Positions 5,455-54,108 of a stretch of DNA of 64,000 nucleotides are shown piece after piece. A program made the position numbers and the translations under genes. The DNA comes from Taxillus chinensis (taxonomy: Eukaryota; Streptophyta; Magnoliopsida; Santalales; Loranthaceae), in contig CM042091.1 in the NCBI GenBank assembly GCA_023512835.1, positions 44,792,284-44,856,283 of the forward strand. Direction: 5' to 3'. The first letter of the stretch is position 1, and each line of letters starts with the position of its first letter. The notes below the pieces were generated by a model. The model ran no database searches. It had not been told where the DNA came from and saw only the letters and a program-made list of their open reading frames with translations.

Positions 5455-5567
5455 GCGCACGGCCCTCGCTCATCAGTCATCATTTTGAACTCTCTCTGAC
5501 TCTCTCTCCCTCTCTCCACTTTTCCCACACACTATCTCTCTCCTGAAAAAACTCAACACATCCAACA

Positions 5568-7928
5568 ATGGCGATCGTCGAGTCAGCACCAAACGACATC
5601 CAGGAAGAGAAAAAAACGGCAATAATCCCCCGATCAGGCCGAGTCCCTGTTGTTAGAATCGCCCATTTTCTCAAACCCACCTCCACGTTCTCCATTGAAA
5701 TAGAGCCGCCGCCGCCGCCGCCGCCGCCAGTCCATGACCTTCCCTCACAACCGAGTCCGAATCCTGGCTCAGTTTGGCCTTTCAAGATTGTGTTCCCCGG
5801 TTGGGCGCACCCACCGAAGGACTGGAACCAGTGGGTCGGCAAAATGCTCTCTTCCCACCATTCCACATGGGAGCAGTCCGGAATTCGGTCCGCGATTATC
5901 GCGTCCACCTGCGAAATCAGGAGAGGAGATGACTTGCTTCTCGCCCTCGCGCAGAGATGGTGCTCCGAGACTAACACGTTCGTGCTCCCATGGGGCGAGG
6001 CCACCATCACGTTAGAGGATGTGATGGTCCTCGGTGGCTATCCTGTTTTGGGCGCCCCCGTTTTTGGGTCACCACCCACCCTCGAGGCCACCGCAGATTT
6101 GAGGCGAGTCGAAGAAGGCCTGAACCAAGCGCGAATGCAAATCATGAGGACTAGGGCCCAGAAGGCCAATCAGAGCTTATGGATGAAGCATTTCACCGAG
6201 AACGAGTCCGAATTCGAGCACGATGCCTTCCTCTCTATGTGGCTTGCTCGCTTCGTTTTTCCGTCCACCTCGGGCCACACCATTCAGAGATACGTCTTCC
6301 CAATCGCGATTCAGCTCGCCCGAGGCACCCCTCAGGCTTTGGCGCCTACAGTTCTCGCTCACATTTACCGTGACTTGAGCTCGCTTAAGCAGAGCCTGGG
6401 CGCGGCACCCAAATCGAGGACCACATGCACCCTTCGGGCGCCTCTGCAGTTGGTTCAGATTTGGGCGTGGGAGAGGTTCTCCAACCTGCGACCAAGGTCG
6501 AACCCGGTCGAGAACGGTGCGCCTAGATCGTCTCTGTGGCACAAGGTGAAGTGTCAGAGAGTTGGTAACTTTGGGATGGCGTTGGACACGGGAAAGAGTT
6601 TCTTGTGGCGCACATGGGCTTCTTGTTCTTCCAACCTTTATAGAGACAAAGAAGAGAGGGTCTTGGTGGGTTCCGATTCAGGTGAGGATCTGCAGTCCCT
6701 GGTTCGATGCTTGAGAGTATCCGAGCTGGTGGGGATCGATTGTGTAGAGCAGTACCTCCCGAATCGGGTTGCAATGCAGTTTGGTATGGACCAGGACGTT
6801 CCGGGTCGTGTTGATCGCTGCAATGAAAGCCCTGAGATTGCCTGGGGCAATTATAGCAGGCCAATTGTGGACTCGGAGTTGTACATCCCATCGCCTGGCT
6901 TTCAATCTGGTGTTACGCCTCGATACTTGAAATGGTGGCGCTCCATGCATGGATTTGAGATCACGGGACTGGAACTGGATGGATCTTCGGAGGCTGCTTC
7001 TAGTTCTAATGGGAGTGAGGAGGGGTCATCGCGAGAATCTGAGCTCCCGGGTCTGGAATTTCAGGAAGGGACAAATTCAGAACTATCCAGAGTCGAAGCC
7101 CAATCTGTCCAAGTTGCTAATCGGATTGAAGGCGGGTCCATGCAGGAAAATGAGATTCTGGGTCTGAGAAGGTGTCCACTGGCTTCCAAGTCAAATGAGG
7201 AAGATCACTATTTTGCTGTTTCTCCTGGTTTTCCTCCAGGGTCCGAGAGAGGAACAATAAATGGTGATTCTAGTGAAGAAGATCATGAAACCACAATCCC
7301 GGAGCTATTGAAAAGCAAAACGAGTGCAACTAGTTCTAACAACAGAGGTCCAGGAGGTCATGTGCAGCGGATGGTTGATTCGAATGAAGATGATGTAGTC
7401 ACATTTTCAGGACTAAGATCAGTTGGGAATCGTCAAATTCCTTCAGTGTCTCGAAGTGCAGAAGATGGAACTTGTAGAAAGATAGAATCCGTAGAAGAAA
7501 AGACTATGATGAGTAGGTTTGAAACGGGACAAATAGAAAGTAAAGCTAAGAACACTTTGTTGAGTAGCGGCAATGGCGAGCAGAATGTAGTAGTTGTGGA
7601 AGCCATCCCCGATGAAAGACCCAGATTACAAGTTGACGGTGATGATAATTCATCAGCAGTAGATCTTCAAAATATTTTGGTCTCTCCAAGTGCAAGCGTT
7701 GGGGGTGTTGTACGGATGGAACCTTTAGAAGAAAATACTAACAGTGGGTCTGAAATGAGCAAACCAGGGAGTGAAGCTGCGAACATTATGGTGAGTAACA
7801 ATGGCAATGGAGAACAAAATGTAGATGTGGACGGCCTTATTGCTGAAGAACCTGGACTGCAGCTCGAAGATCGGGTTAGCAAACTTGAGAAATTGTTCCG
7901 TTCCAGAAGGAAGAATTGGCAGCTGTAA
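5568..7928 (+). CDS. Plant mobile domain (PMD) family protein, MAIN-like/aminotransferase-like
   Basis: Single-exon gene encoding 786 residues, from the ATG at 5568 to the TAA at 7926-7928. A proline run lies at residues 47-54. The PMD follows, with its signature LPWGEATITLEDVMVLGG at about residues 139-157 and further conserved W, LARFVFP and YRDLSSL-type segments up to about residue 310. The second half is a Ser/Glu-rich, probably disordered tail ending in a short amphipathic helix (LEDRVSKLEKLF, near residues 765-777). PMD proteins are plant-specific and occur both as host genes of the MAIN/MAIL type, linked to silencing and meristem maintenance, and inside transposons. The long intact frame, the promoter-like leader and the absence of flanking terminal repeats favour a host gene. 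Its exact role is unknown. The next gene starts 1 kb downstream on the same strand. Confidence 0.88.
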   Translation: MAIVESAPNDIQEEKKTAIIPRSGRVPVVRIAHFLKPTSTFSIEIEPPPPPPPPVHDLPSQPSPNPGSVWPFKIVFPGWAHPPKDWNQWVGKMLSSHHSTWEQSGIRSAIIASTCEIRRGDDLLLALAQRWCSETNTFVLPWGEATITLEDVMVLGGYPVLGAPVFGSPPTLEATADLRRVEEGLNQARMQIMRTRAQKANQSLWMKHFTENESEFEHDAFLSMWLARFVFPSTSGHTIQRYVFPIAIQLARGTPQALAPTVLAHIYRDLSSLKQSLGAAPKSRTTCTLRAPLQLVQIWAWERFSNLRPRSNPVENGAPRSSLWHKVKCQRVGNFGMALDTGKSFLWRTWASCSSNLYRDKEERVLVGSDSGEDLQSLVRCLRVSELVGIDCVEQYLPNRVAMQFGMDQDVPGRVDRCNESPEIAWGNYSRPIVDSELYIPSPGFQSGVTPRYLKWWRSMHGFEITGLELDGSSEAASSSNGSEEGSSRESELPGLEFQEGTNSELSRVEAQSVQVANRIEGGSMQENEILGLRRCPLASKSNEEDHYFAVSPGFPPGSERGTINGDSSEEDHETTIPELLKSKTSATSSNNRGPGGHVQRMVDSNEDDVVTFSGLRSVGNRQIPSVSRSAEDGTCRKIESVEEKTMMSRFETGQIESKAKNTLLSSGNGEQNVVVVEAIPDERPRLQVDGDDNSSAVDLQNILVSPSASVGGVVRMEPLEENTNSGSEMSKPGSEAANIMVSNNGNGEQNVDVDGLIAEEPGLQLEDRVSKLEKLFRSRRKNWQL

Positions 7929-19570: not shown

Positions 19571-21849
19571 CCGATTGTAATATTTCATACCCGGAATAGG
19601 CTAAAAAATAGCTTCTATTTGGTTTGAGAACGTTATTTTAGTTTTGTAGCTGAAAAAATGGTCATTTAGACTTATTTGGAGTGTGGATGACTCAGGGATA
19701 TTTTAGTAACATCCAGTAGCGATTTAAGGGGTAAATTAGTTAATTTAGCTATTTTATGATTCATTATTATTAATATTAAAATAAAATTTGGGATTCAACT
19801 TAATTAATGGTATTTTTGTATTTTAATGAGTTAAAATGGAAATTTTATTGGAAAAAGGAAACTTGATTAAATAGGATTACTTGTTGGGCAAGAAATCAGT
19901 GTTTTAATGTAATTAGAAGTCCTATAAGGCGTGAGGAGAAACTCTATACTTCGGGGGCTCATCCTAAGAGAGTTGACTATTGGTTCTTTGTGCTTTGGAG
20001 AGCCCTAACTATCTGGGAAGCCAAGGAGGAGAGAGAAAGGTGAAAGCTCGAAGTTTTAGGGCGTTTCCAAGTTTTGATAAGCTAGTCTGTCTTCCAAAAT
20101 ATTTGAGGTAGGTGTTTCTATCCCTTTTACATCTTTTCAAGGGTCATATGACTTAGGTTTGGCCTATATTAGAGATTTAAAAAGAGAACGAACGATTTTG
20201 CATGCAAGTGAGATAGGGAGTCTAAATTAAGATGTCTAACGTTCAAAGTTGATGTTGAAAATTTAGAAATCGTTTTAGGGTGAATTCATTATATGCTGGA
20301 ACCATATGAATAATGTTAGTCGGGTGAATAGTATTCTGATCGAATGAAGCTAATTTTTATACTGACGGAATATATGCGGTATTTCGGTAAACTTTTCTTT
20401 CTGGTCGGATGAAATATGAGGTGGTCGGGTGAGCAACAAGCAGTCAGGCGAAGCTAATTTTTATACCAATGAAATATATGTGGTATTTCGACAAAGTTTT
20501 TCTTTTTGTCAAATGAAATCTGAGATGGTCGGGCAAACAATAAAGTGGTCATGTGAATAGTAACATGATCAGATGATTTTTCTAATATTTTTATTGGATA
20601 GCCAGTTAAAAACCCTTTAAAATGAGGGGTATTATAAGCAAATTAGAATTCTGTAGAATGAATTATGATTTTTTAAAGCTAAGACAAAATCTGCACTATT
20701 TTATCAGCCTATTTTGCTCCTTTTAATATGGTAAGGGAAGTTTAAGCTTGAATCCTTTAGCGGGAAACCCTAAAGATCATTGGGGATTGTAGTGTGCCTT
20801 TTATTATTATAATTGACGTGTATATACTTATTCTTATGTTAAAAACCTGTTCATGATGGTAATACTTTGGTGTGATTATATTGTGGATGTTACGTGTTAA
20901 TTGTTTAATGGTAAAGCTTATATATCGTGGGCTGAATATGATGATTGATGATATGTTTGTTTAAGATGTTATTATTTGCGGTGCACATGAATGCTTAGTT
21001 TGTGTGTAACGAGCTTGATAAGCCGACAATTTGGCCTGCGAGCCTCTATCACTGGGACATGGCTCGATGAGCTGATAGTTTGGCCTACGAGCCTCTATCA
21101 TTATTGGAGAGATGATAGATATGATTGCATGTGTGGCGGTATGATGGATATGGGTGCCTGTGTGGTGATATGGTGGATATGGGTGCTTGTATGGCGGTTT
21201 GATGGATATGGGTTCTGTGTGGTGGTTTGAACACTGGTTTGTATTATTGTGTGCCGCATTAATATCTAATAACTATCACTACACATGTACACTTGTATAC
21301 ATAGTATATAATATTATAAGTTTATTGTTGAGGGTTGGTGAGGAGTGATAGGTCACCTACTGAGCTTCATGCTCACCCCTACCTGTTGATTTGTTTTCTC
21401 TAAGTGTTGACAGGATCTAGCGATAGATTACGCTGCTCAGCGGAGTATTTATTTGATGTATGAATTTTGTTTAGATGTTATTTTTATTGGATCGTATTCT
21501 CGGGCAAGGGTCCATGGATAGTTGTAAGAATTGATTGGGTTTATGTAATGACTTTTATAATATATTTATGATAGTTGTTTGACATTTGAGAAAGTACTTT
21601 TATACCCTTGATGTATGTTTATACAAGGAATATAGATAACATACGCTTTTTATGTCCTTCATAGGTGCTTGTGTTGGGAAGTATTGTCCCACATGGAAAG
21701 ATTTGGGGAAGGCTAAGGGGTTTATAAGGTAGAGCAAGCCTAGAAATGTCATAATGCATTTTAAAGTTGTGCGGGCCGATGTGGCGAGCCCAAAGCGGAC
21801 AATATTGTGACATGCGGGTGGGCTTGCACCTTGGCCCGATCCTAACAAG

Positions 21850-21862
21850 TGGTATCAGAGCC
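21850..21862 (+). promoter_or_regulatory. Primer-binding site 1 (tRNA-Met type)
   Basis: TGGTATCAGAGCC, two bases after the end of the left outer LTR. It is complementary to the 3' end of plant initiator tRNA-Met, the usual primer of plant copia, TRIM and retrozyme elements. Confidence 0.9.
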
Positions 21863-22242
21863 GAACTGGCCCGTATCCTAAAGACTCGCCGAGCACTCTC
21901 GCGAGTAGCGTGATCCCAAGGTGGGAGCTCACAGAGGTGAGTCGACCGATAGTGTCTTGCACGTCTCGCGTCCATAGAGTTGGAGTATCCTAGAGTGTGA
22001 TACAGAGTTGGGCAAGGGAGTACGAAGGAGTGCGTCGGAGCGATCTTGGAAGCCTCCTATCCTTTGGACATTGGGCGAGTGAGCGAGCATCTTGGTAAAG
22101 GTGTTGCAACATGCGGGGAAGCGATGTCCAACCTGTTGACATTGCGCGAGTGGGAGGGTGTCGAGGTAACGATGTCATCGCCTACGGGGAAGCGATGTTG
22201 ACAAGCGCAACGAGGATGTTGCGAGGATTGGGTGGAGGAGAA

Positions 22243-22656
22243 TGTCACGACCCGAGCAGCATGGTGCTGGCGGGACGTTTCTTAGTGGTACGATTCAGGA
22301 ATGTATTCGTGCTACGTAAAGGATAGGGGTTGGTTGAAAGCGTAGATGGTGCGTAGCGGAAGGTTCCAGGCAGTTCGTGGAGGAAAACGGATGGAACCCC
22401 TTCGGAGTTCAGACGTGCCGACCCGGTTGAATGCGGGGAGCACGCCGCTAGTCGAGGACTTGACGTTGAAGAAGGGATTTGGCCATCTTTACACAAACTG
22501 GTCGGGAACTGGAGCCGTTCTCCTGATGAGCCCAGTGGCAGGGCGAAACCAGTCTACGTGCGCTTCAACCCTCAAAGGCTAAACTTAGCGGACCGTGGAT
22601 AGAGAAGCTAAGTGCCGCAATGGGTTGAGAGGCACAAGAAACCTGACCCCGTGACA
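22243..22656 (+). repeat. Inner LTR-like unit of retrozyme type
   Basis: It begins TGTCACGACCC and ends CCCCGTGACA (TG...CA, with TGTCACG/CGTGACA inverted ends). It is preceded by the purine-rich GGTGGAGGAGAA (22231-22242) and followed after two bases by a tRNA-Met primer site, exactly as an LTR would be. It contains the hammerhead at 22497-22553. The 414-bp length and layout fit plant retrozyme LTRs. Only one copy is present, and no target duplication flanks it on its own. Confidence 0.75.
22497..22553 (+). ncRNA. Type III hammerhead ribozyme
   Basis: All core positions are present. Stem III is ACTGGT (22497-22502) paired with ACCAGT (22548-22553). The cleavage triplet is GTC, with the cut after C22503. 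Stem I is GGGAAC (22504-22509) with GTTCTC (22517-22522), including one G-U pair, and a 7-nt loop TGGAGCC. The core CTGATGA is 22523-22529. Stem II is GCCC (22530-22533) with GGGC (22541-22544) and a 7-nt loop AGTGGCA. The core GAA is 22545-22547, and A22548 pairs with T22502. GCC in loop I and GGC in loop II could pair, as in loop-loop contacts of natural fast hammerheads. In plants such type III motifs define retrozymes. Activity is inferred from the intact fold. Confidence 0.93.
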
Positions 22657-22658
22657 AG

Positions 22659-22671
22659 TGGTATCAGAGCC
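22659..22671 (+). promoter_or_regulatory. Primer-binding site 2 (tRNA-Met type)
   Basis: A second TGGTATCAGAGCC, two bases after the inner LTR-like unit. The 164-bp block from 22657 to 22820 repeats 21848-22011. Confidence 0.88.
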
Positions 22672-22880
22672 GAACCGGCCCGTATCCTGAAGACTCGCCG
22701 AGCACTCTCGTGAGTAGCGTGATCCCAAGGTGGGAGCTCACAGAGGTGAGTCGACCGATAGTGTCTTGCACGTCTCGCGTCCATAGAGTTGGAGTATCCT
22801 AGAGTGTGATACAGAGTTGGTCCCACATGGTGGTAGCTCAAATCCATAGGTGTGTCCTATGATGTGGTTCGATGTGTGAC

Positions 22881-22892
22881 AAAGGGGGAGAT
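22881..22892 (+). promoter_or_regulatory. Polypurine tract
   Basis: AAAGGGGGAGAT directly before the right outer LTR; it would prime plus-strand DNA synthesis. Confidence 0.85.
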
Positions 22893-23216
22893 TGTTGGGA
22901 AGTATTGTCCCACATGGAAAGATTTGGGGAAGGCTAAGGGGTTTATAAGGTGGAGCAAGCCTAGAAATGTCACAACGCGTTTTAAAGCCGTGCGGGCCGA
23001 TGTGGCGAGCCCAAAGCGGACAATATTGTGACATGCGGGTGGGCTTGGACCTTGGCCCGATCCTAACAGCTTGTCACCAACCCCTTGGCCCTTTGGGTGC
23101 AGGCGTAAGGAAGCCATGTGTTCGGTTCCAATTCTATGGAATTGGGGACTTGACGCCGATCGTTTGACCCTTTAAGTGCGAGCATGGGGAGTCACTGACT
23201 GGTTTTTTCGGGTTGG

Positions 23217-53290: not shown

Positions 53291-53683
53291 TGTTGGATTT
53301 TTCATAAACTTAACAATCAACGGATTTGATGAGTGCTCATTAAGCGTTGTTTGTACCTAATAAGGTATAATCATTTTGACAAACTATATATGGTTTTGTT
53401 AAATGAGAAAACTATTATAGGTCACTAAGATTGACCTTGGGAAGAGAATTAGAGGAAGATGAAGAAGATGATTGTTTGTAGGAATGGAGCAATGTTTGTA
53501 TAATTTGAAAATATTCTTCTTCAGTTTGAGCTTTTGCTAATTAAGCTTGGGCAAAGGCTTTTTGGATAAGAAAATTCAGTTTGGATGACTTGGGTAATGG
53601 GGATTGATTTTGTTTTGAAAATCCTTTGAAAAATAGATGGTTTAGAGAGTTAGGTTGGAATATTATATGAGTTTCACCAGTTT

Positions 53684-54108
53684 TGTAACAGCCTAGCCCA
53701 CCCGTAGCCCGATATTGTCCGCTTTGGGCCTCGCCCGCATGGTTTTGTTTTTGGTAGGCCCTCGGCCCCCAAAACGTGTCGTGCTAGGAGAGGTTTTTAC
53801 AGTCACCTAAGTAGCCTGCTTCGTTGTCCTCCCCAGCCGATGTGGGACATTATATCCACCCCCCTCGGAGAGCCCAGCGTCCTCGCTAGCACACCGACCC
53901 GGGCCCTGGCTCTAATACCATTTGTAACAGCCTAGCCCACCCGTAGCCCGATATTGTTCGCTTTGGGCCTCGCCCGTACGATTTTGTTTTTGGTAGGCCC
54001 TCGGCCCCCAAAACGCGTCGTGCTAAGAGAGGTTTCCACAGCCACCTAAGTAGCCTGCTTCGTTCTCCTCCCCAATCGATGTGGGACATTATATTATGAT
54101 ATGTTACA
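53684..54108 (-). mobile_element. TRIM element, TSD AGTTT
   Basis: The element is bounded by TGTAACA and TGTTACA, with AGTTT on both sides (53679-53683 and 54109-54113). Two direct copies of a roughly 172-bp LTR (53684-53855 and 53923-54094) flank a 67-bp interior. On the minus strand the interior starts with TGGTATTAGAGCC (one change from the tRNA-Met primer site) and ends with the purine tract GAGGGGGG. The LTR shares words such as GCCCAAAGCG...ACAATAT with the outer LTR of the 21672-23068 element, so the two are relatives. The LTR nearer the purine tract lacks about 14 bp of one end. Confidence 0.8.

Follow-up and report, generated by a model that had tools for sequence, protein, structure and literature searches.

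A retrozyme segment bearing a hammerhead ribozyme lies within an unrelated miniature LTR element of Taxillus chinensis

The 64,000-nt stretch of the Taxillus chinensis genome analysed here (the window; contig CM042091.1, positions 44,792,284 to 44,856,283, forward strand) carries a type III hammerhead ribozyme, and its sequence anatomy identifies the surrounding locus as approximately 1.2 retrozyme units, from the primer-binding site on, inside an unrelated miniature LTR element, H. The locus most likely records the mixing of two element families and is not an ordinary source of circular RNA. We place a probability of roughly 0.7 on its having arisen through one integration event, that of a chimeric cDNA produced when co-packaged H RNA and retrozyme RNA were copied together with template switching.

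Anatomy of the chimeric element

The element is 1397 bp long (21672-23068) and is ordered as LTR_H, primer site, D3, retrozyme internal region, LTR_R, primer site, D3, the last 72 nt of the H interior and LTR_H, where LTR_H and LTR_R are the LTRs of the two families and D3 comprises the retrozyme primer-binding site and the sequence downstream of it. The length exceeds the TRIM limit of 1000 bp because the retrozyme insert is present. An exact 5-bp repeat, GCTTG, borders the element as its 5' (21667-21671) and 3' (23069-23073) target-site duplication (TSD). The terminal LTR_H copies, both 176 nt and on the plus strand (21672-21847, TGTTGGGA...TCCTAACA, and 22893-23068), are 96% identical, with six transitions among seven differences, and an Rfam scan of these two copies found no hammerhead. 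Behind the 5' LTR_H lies D3a (21848-22011, plus strand, 164 nt) with the primer-binding site TGGTATCAGAGCC at 21850, followed by the retrozyme internal region (22012-22242, plus strand), which closes in a polypurine tract (GGGTGGAGGAGAA, 22230-22242) and is 90-96% identical to its full-length counterparts in retrozyme copies. The internal LTR_R (22243-22656, plus strand, 414 nt, TGTCACGACCC...CCCGTGACA) contains the hammerhead and is mostly 94-98% identical to the retrozyme LTRs of the genome. A second retrozyme lap then begins with D3b (22657-22820, plus strand; primer-binding site at 22659), a 164-nt direct repeat that is 98.2% identical to D3a at a spacing of 809 nt. The retrozyme-to-H junction (22818-22821), placed by alignment and by the start points of H matches, contains a GG microhomology, and the genome holds one instance of this D3-to-H seam when up to two mismatches are allowed. 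It leads into the native 3' internal region of H (22821-22892, plus strand; 92-99% identical in H copies) with the polypurine tract CAAAGGGGGAGAT at 22880-22892. We call the primer site tRNA-Met type after the assignment given for retrozymes in passages of PMC4918200. A 145-aa stop-to-stop frame on the minus strand overlaps the element.

The sequence-only reading had taken the hammerhead to lie inside a small LTR element that might be a source or relic of a retrozyme. The hammerhead is indeed of retrozyme origin and does sit in an LTR element, but that element is not itself a retrozyme. In retrozymes both terminal LTRs bear a hammerhead; the element here has one hammerhead in all, and it is internal. 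The intact hammerhead, together with two primer sites and two polypurine tracts of the kind expected of a retrozyme, speaks for a locus that makes circular RNA; the single hammerhead, the ribozyme-free terminal LTRs and a TSD of 5 bp instead of 4 bp contradict it, and we regard such a source as highly improbable. 'Relic' came near the mark: roughly 1.2 retrozyme units are caught in a foreign miniature element. From the sequence, present activity would be expected to consist of one self-cut at C22503/G22504 that splits any read-through transcript and yields no circle, since a single, internal hammerhead does not provide two cuts.

Nor is the locus a plain nest. LTR_R does sit within an H element, as insertion of a retrozyme or of a solo retrozyme LTR into H would leave it, but the insert does not have LTR_R on both ends, LTR_R is flanked by D3 repeats and not by a short duplication of H, and 203 nt of H are gone. 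With neither an LTR_R pair nor a TSD-like repeat bordering the insert, we rejected nested insertion, the least probable of the origins weighed. The internal LTR and flanking TSDs are those of a template-switching complex; the H core lacks its first ~203 nt, and the element does not hold the two complete cores of such a complex.

A complete type III hammerhead in the internal LTR

Sequence inspection of 22497-22553 (plus strand) confirmed the complete core and three stems that had been read there. Stem III (ACTGGT/ACCAGT) pairs 22497-22502 with 22548-22553, stem I (GGGAAC/GTTCTC, with one G-U pair) pairs 22504-22509 with 22517-22522, and stem II (GCCC/GGGC) pairs 22530-22533 with 22541-22544; the CTGATGA core occupies 22523-22529, and GAA (22545-22547) is followed by A22548, which pairs with U22502. 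The cleavage triplet GTC ends in C22503, with the predicted cut between C22503 and G22504. Each loop is 7 nt long, one containing GCC and the other GGC, as had been noticed from the sequence.

The covariance model called for by the sequence-only reading gave a full-length match to Rfam RF00008 (Hammerhead_3) at 36.2 bits (E 2.5e-6, 401 nt searched), which falls below the curated gathering cut-off of 48.5 bits; no match in the whole window reached the gathering threshold in an Rfam scan. In 1551 nt spanning the entire element the site was the sole match at E up to 1, with an E of 9.5e-6. When both window strands were scanned with a descriptor, the hammerhead was the single match, and with a comparable descriptor a hammerhead was found in 0 of 200 first-order Markov windows, bearing out the view that a chance match is unlikely. 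The motif is real and not noise. Minimum-energy folding was dropped as support: the hammerhead fold (-17.5 kcal/mol) is not the minimum, which belongs to a different, competing fold (-17.6 kcal/mol), and 116 of 200 shuffles fold as well as or better than that minimum, so folding energy by itself lends the hammerhead no support.

Related copies give the fold mixed support. Of 50 copies, the window copy counted in and one additional partial copy left out, 28 carry the identical 57-nt motif. The core and pairs are intact in 30 of the 36 copies of 57-nt length, the length to which that test was applied; both fractions are biased upward by the choice of copies by similarity to the window. Across 23 distinct variants 95.1% of cells pair, and the loop GCC and GGC are both retained in 18. 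Covariation, however, is weak: a single pair varies on both sides (U-A/C-G, 7 cells), and five measures were reached by 40 to 499 of 500 shuffles, leading us to drop covariation as proof of the fold.

Two element families with separate target-site signatures

The genome searched comprised 520.9 Mb in 264 contigs. The ribozyme segment has at least 41 genome matches (best 40 of 1421 candidates scored), the exact catalytic strand occurs 893 times genome-wide, and the LTR_R-to-D3 junction occurs 848 times at up to two mismatches, the reversed control being 0 in both counts. The ribozyme strand had 0 matches in the viral contigs of IMG/VR, where host-like records may be excluded. For the retrozyme family we extracted 34 stretches, four of them wider recuts, and annotated 32. 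Canonical copies read LTR_R (~414 nt), primer site with D3, internal region and LTR_R, in units of 795-812 nt; the family, with its two hammerhead LTRs and 4-bp TSD, also occurs as solo LTRs and as multimers of up to 7 LTRs at one locus (L029). On this sequence record it is a large, canonical plant retrozyme family of the genome.

Several retrozyme arrays deserve description in their own right. L029 (3186-8419) is a 7-LTR multimer flanked by TAAC with units 97.8-99.1% alike, and would be either a single old multimer or the product of a mixed template; L030 (3693-7338) is a 5-LTR multimer flanked by CTCG. Eight exact hammerhead strands at C1:29872274-29880346 are spaced at multiples of ~807-809 nt over ten periods, which suggests an array of ~11 retrozyme LTRs. 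The arrays at L025 (3254-3524, flanked by AGAG) and L034 (3636-4345) close in an inverted partial unit, and the inverted end of L025 suggests inverted jumps in reverse transcription. At 36 places in the genome an LTR_R-like end and primer site are followed by different letters, as at C8:41251534 and 41257379, which lie 5.8 kb apart with an LTR end identical to LTR_R; judged by sequence, these places may belong to a candidate gypsy-type autonomous helper of the retrozyme.

Native H elements (606-634 bp) consist of LTR_H, primer site, ~203 nt (a segment defined from 14 H interiors), 72 nt with the polypurine tract, and LTR_H, giving an internal part of ~275 nt. At less than 1000 bp, with LTRs and a TSD in the 4-6 bp range, they have the size and TSD of TRIMs; tandem copies are present, and the normal LTR_H-to-H junction occurs 62 times at up to two mismatches. 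With the best 40 of 1977 candidates scored and 6 shorter matches set aside, all 39 long H matches from outside the window start within query positions 39-42, which correspond to window 22818-22821; D3b is therefore foreign to H. D3 occurs in retrozymes and is absent from the native H copies examined, and we accordingly rejected D3 as a native possession of both families. A second miniature LTR-like element on the minus strand of the window (53682-54094), with 174-nt repeats 93% identical around a primer-like site (TGGTATTAGAGCC), has a short stretch in common with LTR_H. Elsewhere in the window, a 793-aa open frame (5547-7928, plus strand) encodes a plant mobile domain, strongly matched (PF10536, E 1.1e-108).

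The two families leave different TSDs, which we measured exactly at element ends. H elements with two full LTRs have a 5-bp TSD in 10 of 16 cases and none in 6, and retrozymes with two full LTRs have a 4-bp TSD in 16 of 19 cases and none in 3; among these three, L029 would have TAAC once an altered first LTR base is allowed. There is no overlap in length (Fisher p 4.9e-7 among elements with a TSD, with L049 and L050, apparently one site in two orientations, counted once). Loci that lacked a full LTR at either end, or that duplicated a site already represented, were excluded from the count; among them, L015, L018 and L035 have no clear duplication and L025 and L042 have 4 bp. We infer two integrases, and hence two helper systems, whose template RNAs nevertheless met.

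A reciprocal fusion and the rarity of mixed junctions

A second locus, L051 (C3:17.42 Mb), joins the same families the other way round: LTR_R and a primer site lead into a complete H interior and LTR_H, after which come a second primer site, D3, the internal retrozyme region and LTR_R. Both seams lie at the primer-binding site, both cores are complete, as in a template-switching complex, and the TSD is TAAC. Each chimera thus has the TSD length of its terminal LTR, 5 bp with LTR_H in the window and 4 bp with LTR_R in L051. The outer LTRs of L051 differ at 27 of 414 positions (93.5% identity), share one base found in 0 of 75 others, and rank each other 62nd and 73rd of 76; its 5' hammerhead is altered in the core and its 3' hammerhead in the stems. 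A single-cycle origin of L051 rests on the 4-bp TSD and that one shared base.

Mixed junctions are rare. At up to two mismatches the LTR_H-to-D3 junction occurs at two places, the window and L051, and the LTR_R-to-H junction at L051 only, against 848 normal retrozyme and 62 normal H junctions. When the best 40 matches were scored by similarity, a candidate divergent LTR_R-to-H junction appeared at C3:4565702 (85%) and a candidate weak, partial LTR_H-to-D3 junction at C2:18107558 (83%). D3 also stands behind an unlike LTR end at C7:4561905 and C98:12548, both absent from the LTR_H-to-D3 similarity matches listed.

An assembly artefact joining two repeats might be suspected where both families are repetitive; two reciprocal loci, whose TSD lengths are those expected from their terminal LTRs, and sequence differences between the paired LTRs make this very improbable.

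Proposed template switching between H and retrozyme RNAs

The sequence of events that we favour runs as follows. Minus-strand synthesis would begin on H RNA and copy LTR_H, the H polypurine tract and the remainder of the 72 nt of H before jumping at the GG microhomology to retrozyme RNA, on which D3, the primer site, the whole of LTR_R, hammerhead included, the internal region and a second D3 would be copied until synthesis halted at the primer-binding site. Plus-strand LTR_H DNA would then anneal at the shared primer-binding site, as in normal second-strand transfer, and strand transfer would close the element with LTR_H on both ends, leaving H integrase to insert the chimeric cDNA with the 5-bp duplication typical of H. 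For L051, one jump between primer sites would be enough. A single integration in the window is indicated by the GCTTG duplication and the 96% identity of the LTR_H pair, and the retrozyme block starts at the very primer site that the H and retrozyme families have in common.

Because a full LTR_R lies between two copies of D3, the retrozyme template would have been a multimer, a circle on which synthesis went round more than once, or a transcript that kept its terminal repeats because it was uncleaved. We favour the circle, since processed linear retrozyme RNA is described without terminal repeats in passages of PMC4918200. The letters do not decide the form: a linear transcript with terminal repeats, followed by strand transfer, would give identical letters, and the extra lap was withdrawn as proof of a circular template. 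Between D3a and D3b, 3 of 164 positions differ, and none of 48 other D3 copies has the odd base at any of them; the odd bases are private, and D3a and D3b probably did not yet differ at insertion. The rate of difference between them is not distinguishable from that of the LTR_H pair (3/164 versus 7/176, p 0.34). On the other hand, 138 of 1092 D3 pairs drawn from separate loci differ at three or fewer positions, and the identity could have arisen by chance. Further points count against template switching, the distant mutual ranks of the L051 outer LTRs among them. The missing 203-nt 5' internal part of H obliges the scheme to include a mid-element jump or a subsequent deletion, and the microhomology is 2 nt only. 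In addition, the 3' LTR_H of the window ranks its own partner 20th of 49; the pair has one shared rare base, and six of its seven minority bases are on the 5' copy.

These features bear on two rival origins. A longer mixed multimer of two retrozyme units and a full H unit could have integrated and later lost, by microhomology deletion, the stretch from position 164 of D3b to the last 72 nt of H: retrozyme multimers of up to 7 LTRs with one TSD and tandem H copies exist, and GG at the seam suits end-joining, but an extra event is required and no intact longer copy was found (the divergent candidate at C3:4565702 apart, the LTR_R-to-H junction at up to two mismatches being confined to L051). We consider this unlikely. 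Still less probable is recombination or gene conversion at the DNA level, by which an H insertion would later have acquired retrozyme sequence from a genomic array. Such arrays do contain the required D3-internal-LTR-D3 stretch; homology, on the other hand, amounts to just ~15 bp on one side (the primer site) and 2 nt on the other, and a reciprocal fusion with the same primer-site seams would need a second accident, whereas the site is one at which strand transfer ordinarily takes place.

Template switching between co-packaged RNAs remains our preferred origin. More tentatively, and with some doubt, we put forward that a retrozyme circular RNA entered the particle of an unrelated LTR lineage that has a different integrase, and was reverse-transcribed for more than one lap, which would make the locus a datable fossil of reverse transcription on a circle and would reveal a route for ribozymes between LTR families, in both directions as L051 suggests. 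An internal ribozyme would cut the RNA of its host element and hinder further copying, which would fit a chimera seen once.

Discussion

Self-cleaved retrozyme RNA has no terminal repeats for strand transfer, and passages of PMC4918200 rely on a model to explain how it re-enters the genome. From two reciprocal fusions, each with a TSD of the length that goes with its terminal LTR, it would seem that reverse transcription brings retrozyme RNA together with RNA of a family that has another integrase, and the shared primer site suggests itself as the point at which retrozyme and H RNAs are joined. This offers a concrete, testable picture of promiscuous packaging and of how a new LTR family could receive a ribozyme. 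A fusion of retrozyme and TRIM was not found among listings of the open-licence literature, which does not prove its absence.

The LTR_R copies of this genome agree with the plant retrozymes described by Cervera, Urbina and de la Pena in 2016 (passages of PMC4918200) in their LTR type III hammerhead, tRNA-Met primer site, polypurine tract, 4-bp TSDs, solo LTRs and multimers, and their unit of ~809 nt falls within the 600-1000 range given there. LTR_R is longer (414 nt versus ~350), the C1 array (~11 LTRs predicted) would exceed the four-hammerhead arrays reported in those passages, and 893 motif matches stand against more than 150 eggplant hammerheads, numbers obtained by different counting methods. 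The chimeric element in the window departs from those retrozymes in that its hammerhead LTR is single, internal and set between foreign LTRs with a 5-bp TSD. Transcripts of a Nicotiana benthamiana reporter with an LTR hammerhead were untranslatable, likely through self-cleavage according to the authors (PMC12029980, in part).

Native H corresponds to the TRIMs of Gao 2016 (PMC4717578, as far as its passages go) in its small size, its order of LTR, primer site, polypurine tract and LTR, its 5-bp TSD and its tandem copies; the TRIM arrays described there are each of one subfamily, whereas the window holds a two-family fusion with a ribozyme. Co-packaging and template switching have been proposed for plant LTR elements, both within families and between different RNAs, and jumps between different packaged RNAs seem to be the origin of Veju-L and BARE2 (Sabot and Schulman 2007, PMC1950507). 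The template-switching complexes of that study share with the window element an internal LTR and flanking TSDs; they also have matching outer LTRs, to which the 96% LTR_H pair may correspond, and are explained there by the co-packaging of two RNAs. Each of its four complexes, however, comprises one family, while here the LTRs are unrelated and the families' TSD lengths differ, and the two parts are joined at the primer site instead of in R.

Carnation etched ring virus (CERV) is a pararetrovirus. Its association with CarSV RNA provides a likeness in a ribozyme-bearing circular RNA with a DNA form and suspected template switching by reverse transcriptase at 4-6 nt of homology (PMC11722881, in part); the locus in the window differs in being an integrated LTR element with an integrase-type TSD. 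Host switching of wheat non-autonomous LTR elements likewise invokes transfer of LTR sequence by template switching or gene conversion (PMC9744471). There it concerns sub-populations of one family, with no ribozyme element in the passages considered, whereas here a ribozyme element and two families are involved.
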